Below are positions 4,213 to 20,998 of a DNA stretch of 21,321 nucleotides, piece by piece (within the stretch, counting starts at the first letter, position 1; each line of letters opens with the position of its first letter). Origin of the DNA: Priapulus caudatus (Eukaryota > Priapulida > Priapulimorpha > Priapulimorphida > Priapulidae); contig NW_014577134.1 of assembly GCF_000485595.1 (NCBI RefSeq), forward strand, positions 491,749-513,069, given 5' to 3'. Both the position numbers and the translations under genes were made by a program. Under the pieces are notes generated by a model. That model ran no database searches, was not told the DNA's origin, and worked only from the letters and a program-made list of their open reading frames with translations.

Positions 4213-4571
4213 CGATTAATTACGCACGAAGGGTCGTTGTCGTAACAGGTACTACAGATATGTACCCGAGGCAGTTTTAGGTTGTTTAGTATTATGTTTA
4301 TATTTTTATATGAGGTATGTTTAGGGTTAGGGTTAGGGTTAGAGTTAGGGTTAGGGTTAGGGTTAGTGTTAGGGTTAGGGTAAACCGACCAGGCTCTCCG
4401 ACTAGTTACACGGCCTCTCGCCACGTAGTGTTAAGCGAGATGGGAACTTGTGGCTAGGGTTAGGGTACACTTCTGTAGTACAAGTCTGGTACACTTTGTG
4501 TATACATATATGTACCTCGGGTACATATCTGTAGTACCTGTTACGACAACGACCCCTTGAGCATTAATTAC
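4213..4571. repeat. Inverted repeat with interstitial telomeric centre
   Basis: The arms (about 4213-4270 and 4516-4571) share GGTCGTTGTCGTAACAGGTA and its complement. The loop holds (TTAGGG)n at 4320-4382, about ten units with few changes. Confidence 0.85.
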
Positions 4572-4678: not shown

Positions 4679-4750
4679 CCTAACCCTAACCCTAATCCTA
4701 ACCCTAACCCTAACCCCTAACTCTAACCATAACTCTAACGCATAACCCTA
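4679..4750. repeat. (CCCTAA)n interstitial telomeric repeat
   Basis: About eleven CCCTAA-like units, increasingly degenerate to the right. Its orientation is opposite to the TTAGGG run at 4320-4382. Confidence 0.9.
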
Positions 4751-4807
4751 AAAAAACCACCGCGCGCCCGTACCCTACCCGCCCGCCGCCGCCTACCCCT
4801 TACGCCT

Positions 4808-10020: not shown

Positions 10021-11820
10021 CATAGTTAGTTAGTTAGTTAGTTAAGGATAATGGGTTGTAATAATAGGCCTAGCCTAATGTGCACCCATATCTGGCGATT
10101 TCCTGAATCGGTCGATTCTGACCTTAAATTCGTTAGTCGTGGTAGCTGCGACTGCACTTTGTGGCAGTTTATTCCAGGGTTGCACCACTCTCTGGCTGAA
10201 AAAGTTTTGTCGCACCTGGAGTCTGGACCGTTGTTTATATAGTTTCATGTTATTTCCTCTTAATGATGTTTTTGAGGCTGGACAAAAGAAAGTGTTTGGA
10301 TTCAGTTTATATTTCCCTGTCATGATTTTGTATGATTCTATTAGGTCGCCTCTTAGTCTTCTGGTATGTAAAAATTGTAATCCTAAAAAACTTCAGCCGG
10401 CCCTTAATTGTACTTGACGTTTTTAACCCATATATACTAGTTTGATGGCCCTTCGTTGGAATTTTTTTCCATGTGCTCAATGTCTTTACTAAAGTAGGGA
10501 GACCAGGCCTGGATGCATTACTCTAGATGTGGACGCATAAATGTTTTGTATAGAATCAAGAAAGCTTTCTTGTCCAGGAACTTGACGGACTTCCTGATTG
10601 ACTGTAATACGTTGGTAGCTGTACAGGCTGCCTTTATGCACTGCATCATAGGTTTCATGTCATTAGATATCAAAACCCAGGGTTCTGCCCACGGTGGGCG
10701 GCGGTGGGCGGGTGTGCCCGGCACTCGCGGTTGCCGCCCGGCACTATATATCTCCGCCCGGCACAAATTTTTGATATAAAAAAAAAAGGAAAAAAAAGAG
10801 TGATATATGAGCTTTTTATTGCTCAGAATGCAGGAAATTGAGTTTCAGACTATCAAAAATCAAAAATTTTCAGGGGGGCATGCCCCCGGACCGCCCTAGA
10901 TTGGCTTCGCGCCTACGGCGCATGCATGCATCTGGATGCGCCCGGCACTAAAAAATCCTGGGCAGAACCCTGAAACCCCAATGTCATTTTCCACCTCTTC
11001 CTCCTTCAAAATTCTTCTTTGGTCCCCGTCTTTCATTGTGTAGATTTATATATTTGTTATTTTTACTGCCGATGTGCATCCTTTTGTATTTTTCAACCTC
11101 ACCTCATTTATCGAGGTCTGTCTGCAGAAGAATATTGTCTGTGATGTTTCTTACTATATTCCAAATTTTTGTATCGTCTACAAAAATTTACAAGGTCTGG
11201 TATATCGTTTTAACATAAATTAAAAACAGGATTGGACCCATGACTGATCCTTGAGGTACCCTGCTGTCGACGCTGCTCCACTCAGAAAATTCTTCGTGCA
11301 CTGATACCCGCATCTTTCTGTCTGTCAGGAAACTTTCCAGCCATGCGATTAGGTTTCCCCTGATTCCGTAGCCTTTTAGCTTACTTATGAGACGGCGGTG
11401 TGGAACCGTACGGTGTCGAAGGCCTTTTGGTAATCCAAAAATACTGTGTCTATTGAAGCACCACAGTCCAATGCTGATGTCCAGTCTTCGAACGTTTCTA
11501 GAAGATTTGTCAGGCAGCTTTTTCCTGCCGTGAACCCGTGCTGGTGAGGAGTGAAAAGGTCATTAATGTTTAAGTGCTCCACAATGGGACCTTTTACCAG
11601 AGATTCCATCACTTTACATGTTACACTTATTAGTGCCACCGGTCTATAATTTCCCGCATTAGTCCTGCTTCCCTTCTTGAAGATTGGGGTGATTTCTGAG
11701 CATTTCCAGGCTGTTGGTGCCTTGCCTTCTTGTAGCGACGATTGAAAAATGATGCTCAGTGGTTTAGCGAGACCCTCTGCGCACTCGTAACTAACATAGT
11801 TATTTCCCTTACTCGTACAT
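10021..11820 (-). pseudogene. 5'-truncated CR1/L2-like non-LTR retrotransposon, ORF2 remains
   Basis: Minus-strand reverse transcriptase remnant. Reading from 11800 downward: LQEGKAPTAWKCSEITPIFK and GNYRPVALISVTCKVMESLV (RT fingers); HQHGFTAGKSCLTNLLE; FLDYQKAFDTV (first catalytic aspartate region); SRVPQGSVMGPILFLIY; and FVDDTKI (catalytic DD). After that come the thumb (SNDMKPMMQCIKAA, FLILYKTFMRPHLE) and the C-terminal mark NFFSQRVVQPWNKLP (10075-10323). The element ends in a (CTAA)n tail at 10023-10044. Frameshifts and stops, for example before FVDD, make it inactive. The endonuclease part is absent, as in usual 5' truncation. A MITE interrupts it at 10678-10973. Confidence 0.85.
10678..10973. 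mobile_element. 296-bp MITE with 14-bp TIRs and 5-bp target duplication
   Basis: The ends CAGGGTTCTGCCCA and TGGGCAGAACCCTG are perfect inverted copies, flanked on both sides by AAACC. It interrupts the retrotransposon frame between the codons for GV and ISNDMKP; removing the element and one AAACC restores that frame. Inside are GC-rich CGCCCGGCACT repeats and GGGGGGCATGCCCCCGGACC. The CAGGG start and 5-bp duplication fit the hAT5-type group; this class call is inference. Confidence 0.8.
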
Positions 11821-11852
11821 TCTCAATATAGTCACATAAACTACGGACAGTA

Positions 11853-14132: not shown

Positions 14133-14342
14133 ATGCAGAGAGTCGGATCAGCCATACTAGAGCAAGGTATGGGTAACGAGAAGGCATCGAAAGTGTCGCA
14201 GGATGGAGGTGACAGGCAGCCAGATGGAGACAGAAAAACCGTCTTTCTTGTAGTTATCATGCTAGTCATTGATCTCCTGGCCTTCACCATGATTCTTCCT
14301 CTTCTACCAACGTTGCTTGACTACTATGGAGAACATGACGAG
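14133..14342 (+). CDS. MFSD10: MFSD10 coding exon 1 (residues 1-70)
   Basis: The ATG at 14133 lies in a good context (TCACCATGC, with A at -3). The exon encodes a charged N-terminal tail (about residues 1-35, rich in Q, G, D and K), then the first membrane helix (about 36-60) and the short loop DYYGEHDE. It ends in phase 0 at GAG, followed by the donor GTACAG. An AG at 14112-14113 (CAATACAG) with a CTAAT-like branch motif about 25 bases upstream could be the acceptor of a 5' untranslated intron. If so, the transcript starts further upstream. Confidence 0.9.
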
Positions 14343-17300
14343 GTACAGTTCATTGAGTGCAGTATTTACCTATGTAGGGTGCATCAGGGGTGTGTGGAGA
14401 AGGAGAGATATAAGGTACGTTATTGTCCCTAGAGACAGAGAGAAAGAGTAGGACAAAGAACATGGAGGGATGGAGGGACGGGCAGAAAGTATGTGGCTGT
14501 GTGTGTGCCTGCACTCGTTTGTGCACGTGGGAGAGTAGGAGAGAGATGGATGACTTGGTATATAATATAAAAAGATGGTAATGTATTTCATGGTGCAAAT
14601 GACAGGGGAGGTAGTAGCAGAGGGAAATCTACGATAAGAATTGCAAAAAAACGGAGCAAATGATTACGTAATATTTTTATTCCTGTACATGATGATTGGA
14701 ATTCATGTTTGGAGTTGCTTAGAAATCACCATTTACATTCTTAAAATTCATAATATGATATTGACAAGGTTTATTATCTTTCTGAGCTAGGCTGTTGCGA
14801 TTCTGAGTCTAAATTTGAACTTTGTGTTTTGTGATTAATAGAGTGGACTTTATGATTGGCTAGTAGACAAAGTGGCAGACTTCAGGGATCTTCTCGGTGC
14901 TCCAGACACGAGGAAGTTTAACTCGGTGCTGTTTGGAGGTTTGCATCATTCTTGCATCATCATTGCATCTATTTTTTGTGATCTAGCCAGTGTTACAAAT
15001 AAAATTTCGGCGGTGGGGTCGCATGCCACGTGAGGAAGAGACCCACGCTTGCTTCTCATTTGCGCTGCTCTTGTGTTTACAGGATTGGTAGGGTCGCTGT
15101 TCTCACTACTGCAGTTTCTCGCCTCGCCTGTGATCGGCGCCCTCTCTGACGTGTATGGACGCAAACCCATGATGTTGCTGAGCATGGTATGCGTGTATAG
15201 TGAACATTTCACAATTCACAACGAATTCACAAATTGAACTCCACAGTGTACAAATTACCTTGATTTGCAATCGTAATTTGCGAGTCAATTCATGGCGATG
15301 CAATGCGAACCAAACATGCTTGTGTTTATCGTTTTAAAGCCGTTTAATAAAAATACATTTATAAATTTAACTGGCAGTGAGACCCATGTGAATGCTTTTT
15401 GCACCAGAAGACATCTTTGCCAATAGTTTTGCTATTTGGAACTTCAACTAACCAATATTTAAAAACTACTTTGTCATCTTACTCACTACTTAAATCATGG
15501 ATGGAACGGTGACAGTGTCAATGCTGCCTGTGCCCGTGCAAAATTGTAATGACAATTTGCGGTCAATGCTAGGTTGGTGTCGCGATCTCCTATGGTGTCT
15601 GGGCGCTGTCAAGTAATTTCCTCATCTTCGTGCTGGCTCGCGTCATTGGCGGCATCAGCAAGGGCAACGTGAGCCTGAGTACGGCAATCGTCACCGACGT
15701 CTCGACCCCAAAGACTCGAGGTCGTGGCATGGTGAGTATCACTGGTGAGGTCGTGCATGGTGAGTATTCCTGTGAGCGTGCATGTGGAGGTATCACTGGT
15801 GATGTCGTGGCAATGGCGAGTGTCACTGTGCAGGTTCGTGGCATGGTGGAGCGTTCACTGTTTTTTTTGGGAAAGGTCTATTCCGGTGGATGCATCGGCG
15901 CGAGTGTAAGTGTGAGGTCCGTCGGCATGGTGAGTATCACTGTGGTGCGTGGCATGAGGGCTATCACCTGTGAGGGTCGTGCGCATGGTGAAGTTACACT
16001 AGTTGGGTCGTGGCATGGGGCAGATATCACTTGTGAGTTGGGTGTGGGACATGGTAGAGTATCACTGTGAGGTCGTGGCATGGTGAGTATCTACTGTGAG
16101 GGGGCAGTGAGTATCATCGTGAGCGTCGTGGCCATGCGTGGTAATAACTCTTGAGGTCGCTGGCATGGTGAGTATCATGTGAGGTCGTGGCATGGGGTGA
16201 GTGATCACTTTGATGGTCGTGCATGCGTGAGTGTCACTGTGAGGTCGTGCATGGTGAGCTACACTGTGAAGGTAGCTGGCATGGCGAGTGTCCTGTGAGG
16301 GTCGTGGCATGGTGAGCTGGTTCACTTGTGGGGTCGTGGCATGGCGAAGGATCACTAGTGAGGGCGTGGCATGCCGCGAGTGCACTGTGAACGGTCGTCG
16401 GCAGCGCGAGTATGTTAGAGTGTGAGGTCGATTGGCATGGTGAGTTGTCATGCTTGGGGCTCGTGCATGGGTGAGTATCAACTGTGAGGTCGTGGCATGG
16501 AGTTACACTGTGATGGTCGTGGCGATGGTGAGTATCACTGTGAAGGTGTGCATGGGAGTGTCACAGTGTGAGGTCGTGGCATGGTGAGTGGTCACTGTGC
16601 GAGTGTGCATGTCGACGTATCACTGTGAGGTCGTTGACACTGGTGAGTATCACTGTGAGGTCGTGGCATGGCGGAGTGTCAAGTGTGAGGTCGTGCAGCA
16701 TGGTGAGTATCACTGTGAGGTCGTGCATGGCTGAGTGTAAGTGTTGAGGTCGCTGGCATTGTGAGTATCACTGTGAGGTCGTGGCATGGTGGTATAACTC
16801 TGGAACTGGTCTGGCATGCGTGAGTATCACTGTGAGGTCGTGCATGCGTGAGTGTCAACTGTGAGTCGTGGCCATGGTGAGTGTCACTGTGAGGGTCGTG
16901 GCATGGTGAGTATGGTCCTGTGAGGCCGTGGCATGGCGAGTGTAGGTGAGGTCGTGGCATGGTGAGTGTCACTGTGGTCGGTGGCATGGTGAGTATCACG
17001 GTGAGGTCGTGGCATGAGCGAGTTCACTGTGAGGTCGTGCATGGTGGAGTTTATCACTTGTGAGGTCGTGGCATGGTGGAGTATTCACTGTGAAGGTCGT
17101 GGCCATGCGCGAGGTCACTGTGAGGTCGCTGGCGATGGTGCAGTATCACGGTGGGTCGTGGCCAATGGCGAGCTATCACTGTGAGGTCGTGGCATGCCGT
17201 GAGTATCACTGGTGAGGTCGTGGGCCATTTGGCGGTTCACTGTTTGAGGTCGTGGCATGTGAGTATCACTGTGGCGGTCGTGGCCATGGCGAGTATCACT

Positions 17301-18796
17301 GTGAGCGTCGTGCATGGTGAGTATCACTGTGAGGTCGTTGGCATTTAGCGTTGAGTATCACTGTGAGGGTCGTGGCAGGCCCGAGTATCACTGTGGAGGG
17401 CGCTGGCATGTCGGCGAGTGTAAGTGTGCAGGTTGGCTGCATTGGTGAGTATCACTGATGAGGTCGTGGACAGTGCTGTGAGTATCGCTGTGAGGTCGCT
17501 GCATGATGAAGTATCACTGCTGAGGTCGTGCATGGTGAGTGTAAGTGTGAGCGTCGTGGATGGCTGAGTATCACTGTGAGTCGTGGCACTGTGTGAGTGT
17601 AAGTGTGAGGTCGTGGCATGGTGAGTATCACTGTGAGGTCGTGGCATGGTGAGTATCACTGTGAGGTCGTGGCATGGTGAGTATCACTGTGAGGTCGTGG
17701 CATGGTGAGTGTAAGTGTGAGGTCGTGGCATGGTGAGTATCACTGTGAGGTCGTGGCATGGTGAGTGTAAGTGTGAGGTTGTGATGCACAGTGAGTGTAA
17801 GTGTGAGGTTGTGCTGCATGGTGAGTGTAAGTGTGAGGTCGCGGCATGGTGAGTGCAAGTGTGAGGTCGTACTGCATGGTGAGTGTAAGTGTGAGGTTAT
17901 GCTGCATGGTGAGTGTATGTGTTAGGTTGTGATGCACAGTGAGTGTAAGTGTGTGGCCAAGCTGCATGGTGAGTGTAAGTGTGAGATCGTGCTGCTTGAT
18001 GAGTTCTACTGTAGGTATGGGTGACATAGTAAGTGGTGGTAAAGATGCAACTCATGATGAGTGAATCTACAGATGGATGCCATGGTACACAATAGTAAGC
18101 ATGCAATGATGCAAGGCATGATATGTACAATGGCAAGCATGCAAGGCATGATATGTATGATGGTAAAAATGCCCGGCATGGTGAACGATATTAAGGACGC
18201 ATGTGATGAGTGTGACTGTAAGGGATATGAGGAGTGGTGAGTGTTACTGTAAGGGGTGCAAGGCATGGTGAGTGTGACTGTAAGGGATATGAGGAGTGGT
18301 GAGTGTTACTGTAAGGGGTGCAAGGCATGGTGAGTGTGACTGTAAGTGATATGAGGAGTGGTGAGTGTTACTGTAAGGGGAACGACCGTACGAGGCATAG
18401 AGTTGTTCGTAAATACCACTCGCGCATTCGCAGAGTTATCGGCGCGTTGCATGCTGGTCTAGCTGGTGATCACGAAAGTTTGCAAACTGCACTAGCGATG
18501 TAGGTCTGCGCAGTATGTTCGAGAAACAGACAGTAGAACAGGTGCGTGCGTGTGCACGTACACGTGAGTGCGTGCGTGCGTGCGTGTGCACGTACACGTG
18601 TGTGTGTGTGTGCGTGTGCGTGTGCGTGTGCGTGTGCGTGTGCGTGTGCGTGTGCGTGTGCGTGTGCGTGTGCACGTACACGTGCGTGCGTGTCCCAGTA
18701 CACGTGCGTTCATGTGTGTGCATGTACACGTGCAGGCGTGTGCACGTACACGTGCGTGCATGCGTGTGCATGTACACGTGCAGGCGTGTGCACGTG

Positions 18797-18828
<32 letters not shown>

Positions 18829-20998
18829 TGTGCACGTACATGTGCGGGCGGGTGCACGTACATGTGCGGGCGGGTGCACGTAAACGTGCGTGCGTGCGTG
18901 TGTGCGTACACGTGCGTGCGTGCGTGCGTGCGTGTGCACGTACAGGTGCGTGCGTGAGTGCACGTACAGATGCGTGCGTGAGTGCATGTGCATGTACACG
19001 TGTGGGCATGTGCACGTACACGTGCGTGCGTGCGTACGTGCGTGCGTGTGCACGTACACGTGCGTGCTTGTGCACGTAAACACCGCCACCTTTCAATACA
19101 GAGGCGTGTTCAGGAGAGCGGATTTGCGAATAACTCTATGGTTAGTGTGACTGTAAGGGGTACGAGGCGTGGTGCGTGTGACTGTAAGAAATGCGAAGCA
19201 TGGTCAGTGTGATGTGATGCTACTGCTGTTATCGAAAGAGATTGGCATCTTGAGTATCTGATTAATTAGTTAGACTTCTGAAATAGTATTAGTCATTACT
19301 CGTCAGTCTAGCTATGTTGTCATGTCGGTGCTTGCTCACATGTCTCTCTTCTCCAACGGCAGGCAATGATAGGCGTCGCGTTCTCAGTGGGTTTCACCGT
19401 GGGTCCAATGATCGGAGCAGCATTCACACGCATGTCTACGGGTGCAGAGGGTTTCTACATTGCTCCCGCACTTTTCGCGCTGACTCTCGCTGTCATTGAC
19501 ATTCTGGTCATCTTCGTGGCTTTCAAGGAGACACTGCCTGCAGAGAGGAGGGTGAGTACGCACACAGCTGCACTACCAGAACACGTTCAAAACATGTCGA
19601 TGTGCGCTTAAAGTGATTACGTCACCGTAAATAGTAAAAAATATGTTAATATTTCCACTTTTTTACAAAATATAAGTAATTCTGTTCACTTTTTATGGTT
19701 AAATTGCTGCATTATACTTCTTATTTTACTATATTGTTCGATGTGAACATACACTCGTGACTCATACATAGCCCATAGCAAGCAAATAATGTTAGGAACA
19801 CTAATATCAAATCGTCCAGGTTTTTGGGATTTTTAACTAGTTGAGAAACAATCTTATCAGGTAAGAATTTGACGATACGTTTAGTCCCGTTAGTTCTTAC
19901 TTTTAATGTAAAAAAATGGCAACAAAAATTTGACAAATTTTACCATAGAAAATTCGTGACGTAGTCAATTTAAGCTTTTTCCCTTGTATTGTAGACTTCA
20001 CGTGTCGTAGTGATACCTGAATCCATGCACTGCCTGCTTGCTTTCGTTGACCACGTTGTCATAAGGTTGTGAATGCAATAGTTTCTGGTCATACCAGTGA
20101 CAGCAAACCTGATAACTACTTGGAAAAGCGAGTTTTTATCAGTGGCTGGATTGTAAAATTTGATTGTATCCTGTCGTTTTCTTCTGCAGTCAAAGTCTCT
20201 GGGCAGTGGAGTGAGTGGTGCCCTGGACTACATCAATCCAGTATCACTCTTTCGCTTCAGTGCTGTCCAACAGGTCAGCGTGAAAGGTAAACAGAGTAAC
20301 TCGTCACTCACCTTTAGCCTAATTAGAGTCGTGTATGTGTTTTTTTGTTAGTTTAGTTTTCCGGGTTTGAATAAAATAACAAACCTAGAAAGCACATTAT
20401 TGCATTTGCAGATAAGGTGATGATGGCAAGACTAGGGCTCATCTACTTTCTATATCTGTTTTTGTATTCTGGACTGGAGTTTACACTTACCTTCCTCACA
20501 CACATGCGTTATCATTACACCAGGTAATGTCATGGAGAGATGAGGGAAGGGGTGACTCACTAATATTAGAAAAGCAAGAGATGCTGGTGGAAATTCATGT
20601 CAATGCTGTGCATTAAAAAGAGCAAATGTTGATTAAAAACGTTCGTTTTCATGGCTATCCTATAGGAATGACTACACACCACAAATTCTCATCTGTCATG
20701 TTTAATCTGTACAATTAGGTGAACTCATTGAACCACTAGGTGACTGTTGTACTATGACATATGTATGAGGTGAGGTACAATAGATTCTATTCCCATAGCT
20801 TCTGTCCCGGCTTTTCCGCGAGTGCAAATATTTACTCGCTGTCCAAACGTGTATGCCAAATTGGTACTGCTTCGAGGCACCAGCCACCTAGCAATCCTCT
20901 ATGTACTTATTTTAATGTTTATTGTGTGCTCTGCTATTTCAGCATGCAGCAAGGCAAGATGTTCTGCTTCATAGGTATCATCATGGCACTCGTCCAAG
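14133..20998 (+). CDS. MFSD10: MFSD10 (TETRAN-like MFS transporter), 8 coding exons, 3' end outside window
   Basis: Spliced gene for a 12-helix major facilitator transporter. Known MFSD10/TETRAN is an organic-anion efflux-type carrier; substrate and membrane here are inferred only from the family. I joined exons 14133-14342, 14842-14938, 15083-15186, 15573-15731, 19363-19551, 20190-20286, 20412-20523 and 20943-20998, each bounded by AG and GT. Together they give 1024 nt, 341 codons plus one base, without a stop; the human protein is about 455 residues, so roughly the last 110 are missing at the right edge. Visible marks: a hydrophilic N-terminus of about 35 residues, TM1 with DLLAFTMILPLLP, the MFS motif A GALSDVYGRKP after TM2, ARVIGG in TM4, a motif-C-like GFTVGPMIGA in TM5, FKETLP after TM6, YFLYLFLYSGLEFTLTFLTH in TM7 and QQGKMF before TM8. 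Motifs and order match MFSD10 rather than other MFS families. No frameshift or internal stop occurs, so the gene looks intact. Confidence 0.93.
14343..14841 (+). other. MFSD10: MFSD10 intron 1
   Basis: 499 bp, donor GTACAG, acceptor ATTAATAG. Purine-rich GGAGGGATGGAGGGACGGGC near 14462. No other feature seen. Confidence 0.8.
14842..14938 (+). CDS. MFSD10: MFSD10 coding exon 2
   Basis: 97 nt between the acceptor ATTAATAG and the donor GTTTGC, entering in phase 0 and leaving in phase 1. It encodes the extracytoplasmic loop between TM1 and TM2 and the start of TM2, ending KFNSVLFG. The NSVLFGG sequence completed by exon 3 is characteristic of MFSD10. The donor is weak at +3 and +5, but the frame and homology leave no other choice. 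Confidence 0.9.
15083..15186 (+). CDS. MFSD10: MFSD10 coding exon 3 (TM2 and motif A)
   Basis: 104 nt, preceded by the pyrimidine-rich TTGTGTTTACAG and followed by GTATGC. It supplies the last two bases of a split glycine codon, then LVGSLFSLLQFLASPVIG (TM2) and the MFS signature GALSDVYGRKP in the TM2-TM3 loop, and runs into TM3 (MMLLSM). It ends in phase 0. Confidence 0.93.
15187..15572 (+). other. MFSD10: MFSD10 intron 3
   Basis: 386 bp from GTATGC to TCAATGCTAG. No repeat or RNA gene recognised. Confidence 0.8.
15573..15731 (+). CDS. MFSD10: MFSD10 coding exon 4 (TM3-TM4); its donor seeds the minisatellite
   Basis: 159 nt, 53 codons, phase 0 at both ends, bounded by TCAATGCTAG and GTGAGTATC. 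It encodes the rest of TM3 (VGVAISYGVWAL), TM4 with LARVIGGISKGN, and the cytoplasmic turn ending in TRGRGM. The last 14 bases, GAGGTCGTGGCATG, followed by the first 14 intron bases, form the unit of the 2.3-kb array that begins at the junction. Exon 5 continues AMIGVAF, so the annotated donor at 15732 is the one that restores the family sequence. Confidence 0.92.
15732..18030 (+). repeat. 28-bp minisatellite made of exon 4/intron 4 splice-donor copies
   Basis: Tandem array starting directly at the exon 4 donor. The unit is GTGAGTATCACTGT plus GAGGTCGTGGCATG: 14 intronic and 14 exonic bases, about 80 copies by length. Every unit recreates CATG|GTGAGT, a near-consensus 5' splice site. Between about 15732 and 17600 most units have one- or two-base insertions or losses. 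Between 17600 and 17770 they are clean, alternating GTGAGTATCACT and GTGAGTGTAAGT variants. From about 17770 a 30-bp variant (GTTGTGATGCA / GTTGTGCTGCA) takes over. Reading frames through the array, including long histidine-rich ones on the minus strand, are products of the repeat and not genes. Confidence 0.95.
18031..18393 (+). repeat. Diverged end of the minisatellite, with a 62-bp higher-order unit
   Basis: The array degenerates through units of the type GCAAGGCATGATATGTA (18060-18180). It then forms a regular 62-bp repeat at 18221-18282, 18283-18344 and 18345-18380, each made of two related halves, GGATATGAGGAGTGGTGAGT and GGTGCAAGGCATGGTGAGTG. Each half still holds a GTGAGT and ends CTGTAAG. 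It shares ancestry with the 28-bp unit. Confidence 0.8.
18400..19136. mobile_element. 737-bp Tc1/mariner-like non-autonomous element inserted in the array
   Basis: The ends are inverted copies: GAGTTGTTCGTAAATACC at 18400 and GGATTTGCGAATAACTC at 19120-19136, flanked by TA on both sides (18398-18399 and 19137-19138). Minisatellite-type sequence resumes directly after it (ATGGTTAGTGTGACTGTAAG). TA duplication and this layout fit a Tc1/mariner-type insertion. I see no transposase; most of the interior is a GTGCACGTACAC microsatellite. Confidence 0.65.
18541..19080. repeat. (GTGCACGTACACGTGCGTGC)n alternating purine-pyrimidine array
   Basis: About 540 bp of GTGCACGTACACGTG blocks separated by runs of GTGC and GTGTGC. 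Purines and pyrimidines alternate almost throughout, and GTGCACGTACACGTG is largely self-complementary, so both Z-DNA and cruciform forms are possible. Open frames on both strands across it come from the lack of stop codons in the repeat. Confidence 0.95.
19137..19215 (+). repeat. Right remnant of the splice-donor minisatellite
   Basis: GGTTAGTGTGACTGTAAGG and two further units (GGTGCGTGTGACTGTAAG, GGTCAGTGTGATG) continue the 31-bp repeat found left of the inserted element, which shows the insertion split one array. The donor core is altered to GTTAGT, GTGCGT and GTCAGT. Confidence 0.75.
19363..19551 (+). CDS. MFSD10: MFSD10 coding exon 5 (TM5-TM6)
   Basis: 189 nt, 63 codons, preceded by a strong pyrimidine tract (TCTCTCTTCTCC) and CAG, and followed by GTGAGTACG. 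It encodes TM5 with the motif-C-like GFTVGPMIGA, a short loop (TRMSTGAEGFYIAP), TM6 (ALFALTLAVIDILVIFVAF) and the start of the central cytoplasmic loop, KETLPAERR. It is separated from exon 4 by 3.6 kb, nearly all tandem repeat. Confidence 0.93.
19837..19974 (+). repeat. Interspersed repeat copy A (intron 5)
   Basis: 138 bp running from CTAGTTGAGAAACAATC to CGTAGTCAATTTAAG. It is matched in inverted orientation by 21052-21167 in intron 8, with the block CAGGTAAGAATTTGACGATA identical. No terminal repeats or coding capacity seen. Confidence 0.8.
20190..20286 (+). CDS. MFSD10: MFSD10 coding exon 6 (central loop)
   Basis: 97 nt after CGTTTTCTTCTGCAG. It encodes the hydrophilic loop between the two halves of the carrier, including LDYINPVSLFRFSAV, close to the loop of known MFSD10 proteins (LLRFSAV). 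I ended it at the GTAAAC donor (20287), because only phase 1 connects in frame to exon 7. The earlier GTCAGC at 20275 would give phase 0 and break the frame. Confidence 0.85.
20412..20523 (+). CDS. MFSD10: MFSD10 coding exon 7 (TM7)
   Basis: 112 nt after TGCATTTGCAG, ending in phase 2 before GTAATG. It encodes KVMMARLGL and TM7 (YFLYLFLYSGLEFTLTFLTH), one of the most conserved stretches of the family, then MRYHYT with a serine codon split to exon 8. Confidence 0.92.
20943..20998 (+). CDS. MFSD10: MFSD10 coding exon 8 (start of TM8)
   Basis: 56 nt after TGCTATTTCAG, ending in phase 1 before GTGTGT. It encodes SMQQGKMFCFIGIIMALVQ, the TM8 entry. QQGKMF is a family marker. The remaining exons, for about TM9-TM12, would lie to the right of the window. 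Confidence 0.9.

Follow-up and report, generated by a model that had tools for sequence, protein, structure and literature searches.

A gene for an MFSD10-like protein in Priapulus caudatus carries, at the head of its fourth intron, a long tandem array whose unit copies the 5' splice site of the preceding exon. How such an array arose, and how the gene could be spliced with dozens of near-identical donors in a row, are the questions addressed here. The window that we analysed is a stretch of 21,321 nucleotides (contig NW_014577134.1, positions 491,749 to 513,069 of the forward strand), and coordinates below are those of this window unless another contig is named.

Results

The MFSD10 gene and its array

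The MFSD10 exons of the window are 100% identical to a predicted P. caudatus MFSD10-like protein of 465 aa, and Pfam recognizes MFS_1. Three further exons follow exon 5, up to 20998, and the joined frame stays open for 341 aa. Exon 4 ends with CGA GGT CGT GGC ATG/GTGAGT at 15731 in phase 0 (the slash marks the splice junction), and the acceptor facing it is CAG/GCAATG at 19363. Across this junction the predicted protein reads TRGRGM-AMIG, i.e. the first donor is joined to exon 5; the protein is labelled PREDICTED and its gene model may have been built from homology alone, so that splicing from the first donor is evident only in the predicted gene model. The RG[RK]GM end of the exon is kept in the predicted proteins of Strongylocentrotus (NRGKGMAMIG), Lingula (TRGKGMALIG), and Capitella (KRGRGMAVIG). 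A search for structured RNA gave no Rfam match at gathering scores. The features of the gene and of intron 4 are as follows.

14133 to 14342, 14842 to 14938, and 15083 to 15186, + strand: MFSD10 exons 1 to 3
15573 to 15731, + strand: MFSD10 exon 4, parent of the array; 159 nt, phase 0 at both ends, VGVAISYG...TRGRGM
15718 to 15731, + strand: exonic half of the founding unit, GAGGTCGTGGCATG, which with the preceding bases codes R-G-R-G-M
15732 to 15745, + strand: intronic half of the founding unit, with the true 5' splice site; GTGAGTATCACTGG in the assembly, one G more than the consensus
15732 to 17592, + strand: 63 units with heavy, mostly private indels and the shared variants GTGAGTATCACT, GTGAGTGTAAGT, and GCGAGTGTCACT; probably uncorrected long-read sequence
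17593 to 17760, + strand: six clean 28-bp units, with no indels in 168 positions
17761 to 17998, + strand: eight older units, seven of 30 bp and one of 28 bp; GTGAGT start in 8 of 8, GTGAGTGTAAGT common
18203 to 18380, + strand: older relatives of the unit (GTGAGTGTGACTGTAAGG...), 31 bp, arranged in 62-bp pairs
18568 to 19078, + strand: GTGC/GTGT microsatellite (found by TRF) that breaks up the repeat family in intron 4
19138 to 19212, + strand: diverged remains of the repeat family, close to the acceptor
19363 to 19551, + strand: MFSD10 exon 5, acceptor ...CAACGGCAG/GCAATG; the predicted protein runs on from exon 4 into it

TRF delimits the array at 15718-17914 with 74.7 copies of the consensus GAGGTCGTGGCATGGTGAGTATCACTGT, and wrap-around alignment resolves 77 units over 15732-17998 (63 up to 17592, 6 up to 17760, and 8 up to 17998). 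The left edge of the array, at 15718, thus lies inside exon 4, and the 28-bp unit, GAGGTCGTGGCATG followed by GTGAGTATCACTGT, consists of the last 14 nt of exon 4 and the start of intron 4. Both methods bear out the derivation of the unit proposed in the first-pass annotation, the extra G aside: its statement that the second half equals the first 14 bases of the intron is accurate for the consensus and off by that one base for the assembled sequence. The tandem array that it described is likewise real, while its count of about 80 becomes about 77 by alignment, itself an approximate figure. The units are less uniform than the annotation had it, with CATG/GTGAGT in every copy; exactly GTGAGT opens 41 of the 77 aligned units and GCGAGT 9 of them, and exact CATGGTGAGT occurs 25 times in the array, the true donor counted in. 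The unit types also vary in their potential for U1 binding: each GTGAGTGTAAGT unit contains two donor-like motifs, in GTGAGTATCACT a hairpin can form over the donor, and the GCGAGT variant is a weakened donor.

With distance from exon 4 the repeats pass from exon-identical 28-bp units to 30-bp and then 31-bp units. Because the copies next to the exon resemble it most and those towards the acceptor have diverged furthest, we infer that the repeat family is old and that its exon-proximal end is young or has been homogenized.

Two other repeat features were noticed in the window. Interstitial telomere-like repeats occur at 4321-4381 and 4679-4751, with TTAGGG and about 300 bp on CCTAAC arranged head-to-head, and reverse-transcriptase-like reading frames in overlapping pieces on the - strand (11188-11822) presumably belong to a non-LTR element.

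Sequence quality and copy number

Over the 1764 unit positions of 15732-17592 we counted 168 insertions (9.5%), 71 deletions (4.0%), and 79 substitutions. Insertions fall on all 28 positions of the unit and deletions on 21, while the substitutions are concentrated on shared variants (A7G 16, T2C 14, C9A 6, and C11G 6). The indel rate of 13.5% in this stretch compares with 0 of 168 in 17593-17760 (Fisher p 1.3e-10, with a boundary chosen post hoc). Among 81 arrays from the loci of this genome that we examined, indels at 8% or more were found in 7 of 7 arrays of at least 800 bp, 6 of 8 of 400-800 bp, 5 of 13 of 200-400 bp, and 15 of 53 below 200 bp. The spread of indels over all unit positions, together with the clean stretch from 17593, indicates that the unit-level decay before 17592 is probably read error, and the noisy stretch looks like uncorrected single-molecule long reads that fill repeats too long for short reads. 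The copy number of about 77 is for this reason approximate, and neither copy number nor unit-level decay in 15732-17592 should be trusted. A literature search for the assembly method of the Priapulus genome, over titles and the beginnings of abstracts, turned up no paper among the matches listed. Within the noisy stretch, about 40 bp at 15860-15900 do not fit the unit (a T-run, then GGGAAAGGTCTATTCC...).

Origin of the array

The first-pass annotation took the exon as the parent and the array as its offspring, and this direction stands because the protein end encoded by the exon is conserved and because the array matches the exon only as far as 15718. It also named the finding that would speak against it, i.e. 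the unit at unrelated loci; no second locus was found in this assembly. The exact 28-mer, in any rotation, occurs at least 4 times in the 385-Mb assembly, every time in this array, and a 24-mer with up to 3 mismatches matches at least 15 times, 14 of them here and one, with 3 mismatches, on C1163; these genome-wide repeat counts are lower bounds. These distributions speak against a dispersed satellite or introner (exact matches 4 of 4 and 24-mer matches 14 of 15 at this locus, as minimum counts). The array on C1163 was rejected as a relative, being a different, noisy short-unit array of which one unit shares 15 bases and beside which no exon was seen.

We therefore consider it likely that the array is a minisatellite seeded by a tandem duplication across the exon 4 donor and tolerated since the first donor is used. 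A 28-bp duplication, comprising 14 nt of exon and 14 nt of intron, would have straddled the donor; the array would then have expanded and diverged within intron 4, and the duplication would have been tolerated because splicing still takes the exon-proximal donor.

Donor strength, reading frame, and RNA structure

By a position matrix, the true donor ATG/GTGAGT scores 10.1, a value equalled or exceeded by 26 later sites of the array. Many later copies carry a 9-mer identical to that of the true donor, which can also fold the same small hairpin as the array copies; with both 9-mer and hairpin shared, no local feature explains the choice of the first donor. The competition among donors proposed in the first-pass annotation is partly supported, by the predicted strength of the sites. 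Folding gave no clear signal of structure: for the RNA of six clean units z was -1.81, matched by 7 of 200 shuffles, and for exon 4 with its donor it was -0.98, matched by 33 of 200. With a score of at least 6 on the position matrix as the threshold, the density of donor-like sites per 100 nt is 1.9 in the noisy stretch of the array and 5.2 in the clean stretch, compared with 0.26-0.60 in introns 1, 3, and 5 and in the remainder of intron 4.

Use of the true donor leaves the frame open through 341 aa. Extension of exon 4 by one consensus unit brings a stop 162 nt past the exon, by two units at nt 60, and by three to five units at nt 57. The annotation had supposed that adding three units would preserve the frame; all consensus extensions of one to five units run into a stop. 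In the assembled sequence, 53 of the 55 later GTGAGT/GTAAGT sites of the array hit a stop, and the two that leave the frame open (15906 and 15930) lie in the error-rich stretch. Splicing from a later donor of consensus units would thus add a premature stop, after which mRNA decay is expected, and the cost of the array would be leak.

How the first donor gets chosen we can only infer. Exon definition across the 159-nt exon, transcription in the 5'-to-3' direction, and removal of surplus U1 before commitment may play a part. In vitro studies attributed to Hicks 2010 and Hodson 2012 are said to have found that the intron-proximal of two equal donors is often preferred. Such a preference would favour the late donors of the array and counts against use of the first donor.

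Arrays that begin at the donors of other genes

Three copies of GGTGAGT spaced 13-43 nt apart have at least 702 matches in the genome. The matches listed span C3 to C119 and were grouped by us into 26 arrays including that of MFSD10; 23 of the other 25 were taken in list order (C50 and C98 were left out, and the flank of C6 is partly N), and three of these 23, at BRR2/SNRNP200, an OATP gene, and an Ig-domain gene, begin at the donor of a recognizable exon. Twelve further arrays came from the list for AGGTGAGT and were hand-picked, partly for a coding-looking unit, so that they are not a sample; five are backed by homology, three by reading frame only, three are unclear, and one is without an exon. 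Over all 35 other donor-motif arrays, i.e. the 23 in list order and the 12 hand-picked ones, 8 are backed by homology as starting at an exon's donor, or 9 of 36 with MFSD10, and the unit lengths of this set run from 17 to 44 bp. In these eight the similarity of the upstream exon stops no more than a few residues short of the first donor; the list gives the residue reached and the number of residues.

C3, BRR2/SNRNP200: 27 bp, 10.1 copies; E 1.3e-22 to 8ro0; exon homology to 76-77 of 79
C64, OATP: 39 bp, 6.9 copies; Pfam E 2e-35; exon homology to 208 of 208
C107, Ig domain: 44 bp, 4.4 copies; homology to 64-65 of 66, weak
C613, dynein LIC: exon homology to 116 of 116
C199, ADPGK: exon homology to 111 of 114
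C587, ALDH: exon homology to 73 of 74
C181, SPO11: exon homology to 58 of 58
C409, LENG8: E 3.7e-4; exon homology to 38 of 39, weak
C11: starts at a donor by open reading frame only; no Pfam match
C89, C313, and C612: reading frame only; no match for C89 and C612, 0.086 for C313, below the cut-off
C460, C175, and C157: exon call unclear
C260: no exon shown

The Ig assignment combines a PDB E value of 1.3e-8, summed over weak matches, with a Pfam I-set score of 20.1 bits, less than the cut-off of 23.7. On this sequence evidence, donor-seeded arrays appear to recur in the Priapulus genome, and the recurrence is the new part of the present findings. SPO11, a meiotic recombination gene, has its own donor-seeded array of 19-bp units in about 7 copies. 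The ALDH array has 30-bp units; the first in-frame stop (nt 80) comes only after its three later donors, of which two are in frame, so longer in-frame proteins would be possible. This array counts against the origin that we favour, because its 30-bp units would lengthen the protein in frame and bring no early stop.

Are donors hotspots of array formation?

Triple-copy matches to the strong donor word AGGTGAGT number at least 172, compared with at least 54 for its reverse TGAGTGGA; single sites number 7123 and 5679, a 1.25-fold difference, so that triple copies are 2.5 times more frequent per site. All such triple counts are lower bounds, and the matches are not independent arrays. Among the control words, AGTGGAGT gave at least 38 triple matches, 34 of them in two short-unit satellites, and AGAGTGGT at least 51, against at least 172 for AGGTGAGT; speaking against a hotspot, the control words TGAGGTGA (reversed) and TGGTGAGA, both partly donor-like, gave at least 472 and at least 172. 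For GGTGAGT the comparison was only at least 702 to at least 432, and GGTAAGT showed no excess (at least 155 to at least 214). The acceptor-like word TTTGCAGG gave at least 25 triple matches to at least 2, with 7 of the 25 belonging to one dispersed repeat.

It is conceivable, if doubtful, that minisatellites in Priapulus arise preferentially at 5' splice sites, e.g. through transcription- or U1-linked DNA damage, and that the affected genes, BRR2 and SPO11 included, form a natural library of rows of several to dozens of equal donors from which the cell still picks the first. Random birth of arrays that are neutral while the first donor is kept may be enough to explain them.

Discussion

The human CBS gene carries a VNTR whose original description is said to be that of Lievers et al. 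2001. Its 31-bp unit, c.1444_1467+7(16_21), comprises 24 exon nt and 7 intron nt (PMC2630376), it sits at the exon 13/intron 13 boundary, where more repeats go with less enzyme activity (PMC5188458), and it appears in a table row of PMC1395315. The two arrays are alike in that the unit, of 31 or 28 bp, straddles a donor and tandem copies extend into the intron. They differ in that the human repeat has 16-21 copies of invariable length, whereas that of MFSD10 has about 77 in generations of 28, 30, and 31 bp; copy number in humans is polymorphic and tied to the activity of the enzyme, while the MFSD10 array is known from one assembly; and species and gene are unrelated. In MFSD10 the unit holds an exon end and an intron start, and its first copy is, by the predicted protein, a real coding exon end. 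The array belongs to the CBS-type exon-intron boundary repeats, a kind already known. As reported for the human repeat, the leak expected of the MFSD10 array may rise as copies are added.

Ordinary intronic minisatellites have a comparable period and a comparable pattern of growth and decay, but the left edge of the MFSD10 array lies in a coding exon and its unit contains a copy of the donor. Among the matches listed in our literature search, none treats donor-derived minisatellites as a class, to judge from titles and abstract openings.

Other explanations of the MFSD10 array can be weighed against seeding by a tolerated duplication. One is that the array is a functional dosage device, in which some of the transcripts are spliced from later donors and then destroyed, so that copy number tunes MFSD10 output. 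The 26 later sites at least as strong as the first donor, the stops in all consensus extensions of one to five units, and the fall of CBS activity with rising repeat number (PMC5188458) would all agree with such a device, but like arrays in unrelated genes suggest a by-product rather than a chosen device, and we consider it unlikely. Selection for a platform that binds many U1 snRNPs and shields the intron from premature polyadenylation, or for a U1 decoy, both suggested in the first-pass annotation, is considerably less probable. The donor-like density of 1.9 and 5.2 per 100 nt, compared with 0.26-0.60 elsewhere, and the retention of GTGAGT in eight of eight consecutive older units accord with it, yet copying a donor gives such density automatically.

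An assembly artefact, i.e. a mis-joined or mis-counted long read over a true intron with only a few units, would account for the sharp drop from 13.5% indels to none at 17593, for the indel rates of 8% or more in 7 of 7 arrays of at least 800 bp against 20 of 66 under 400 bp, and for the runs of N, either gaps or withheld sequence, that bound the window on both sides. It is nevertheless very improbable, given the six consecutive indel-free units on the clean side, the shared variant types that recur throughout the noisy part, and the older unit relatives in clean sequence. The least credible explanation is intron gain by tandem duplication of an AGGT segment, a link that the first-pass annotation had drawn. 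This model (Rogers 1989; Hellsten 2011; potato RdRp, PMC4974935) resembles the MFSD10 case in the tandem duplication of splice-site sequence, and AG/GT is present in the unit. Nevertheless, the unit holds pre-existing intron sequence, the array neither includes nor resembles the acceptor at 19362, and the predicted protein is undisturbed. The duplication did not supply both the GT and the AG: only the donor was duplicated, without a new intron, and an outside acceptor is used, as judged from the predicted protein, so that the link is not supported.

Work on how the spliceosome chooses among equal donors usually relies on engineered sites, two or three at a time. Priapulus genes are natural cases with near-identical tandem donors, several to tens per gene, and RNA-seq could therefore measure donor choice in them directly. 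They also suggest that a tandem duplication can often span a donor without harm, a point relevant to the lengthening of introns and to the origin of boundary repeats such as that of CBS. Arrays near acceptors were also seen. On C47 (1486-1849 of the locus examined), a 30-bp array ends about 10 nt on the intron side of an apparent acceptor, with the coding exon on the opposite strand, and at C33:264441-265312 (- strand) the unit resembles an acceptor plus exon start (TTTGCAG/GCACAGCTGG...), a possible acceptor-seeded counterpart.
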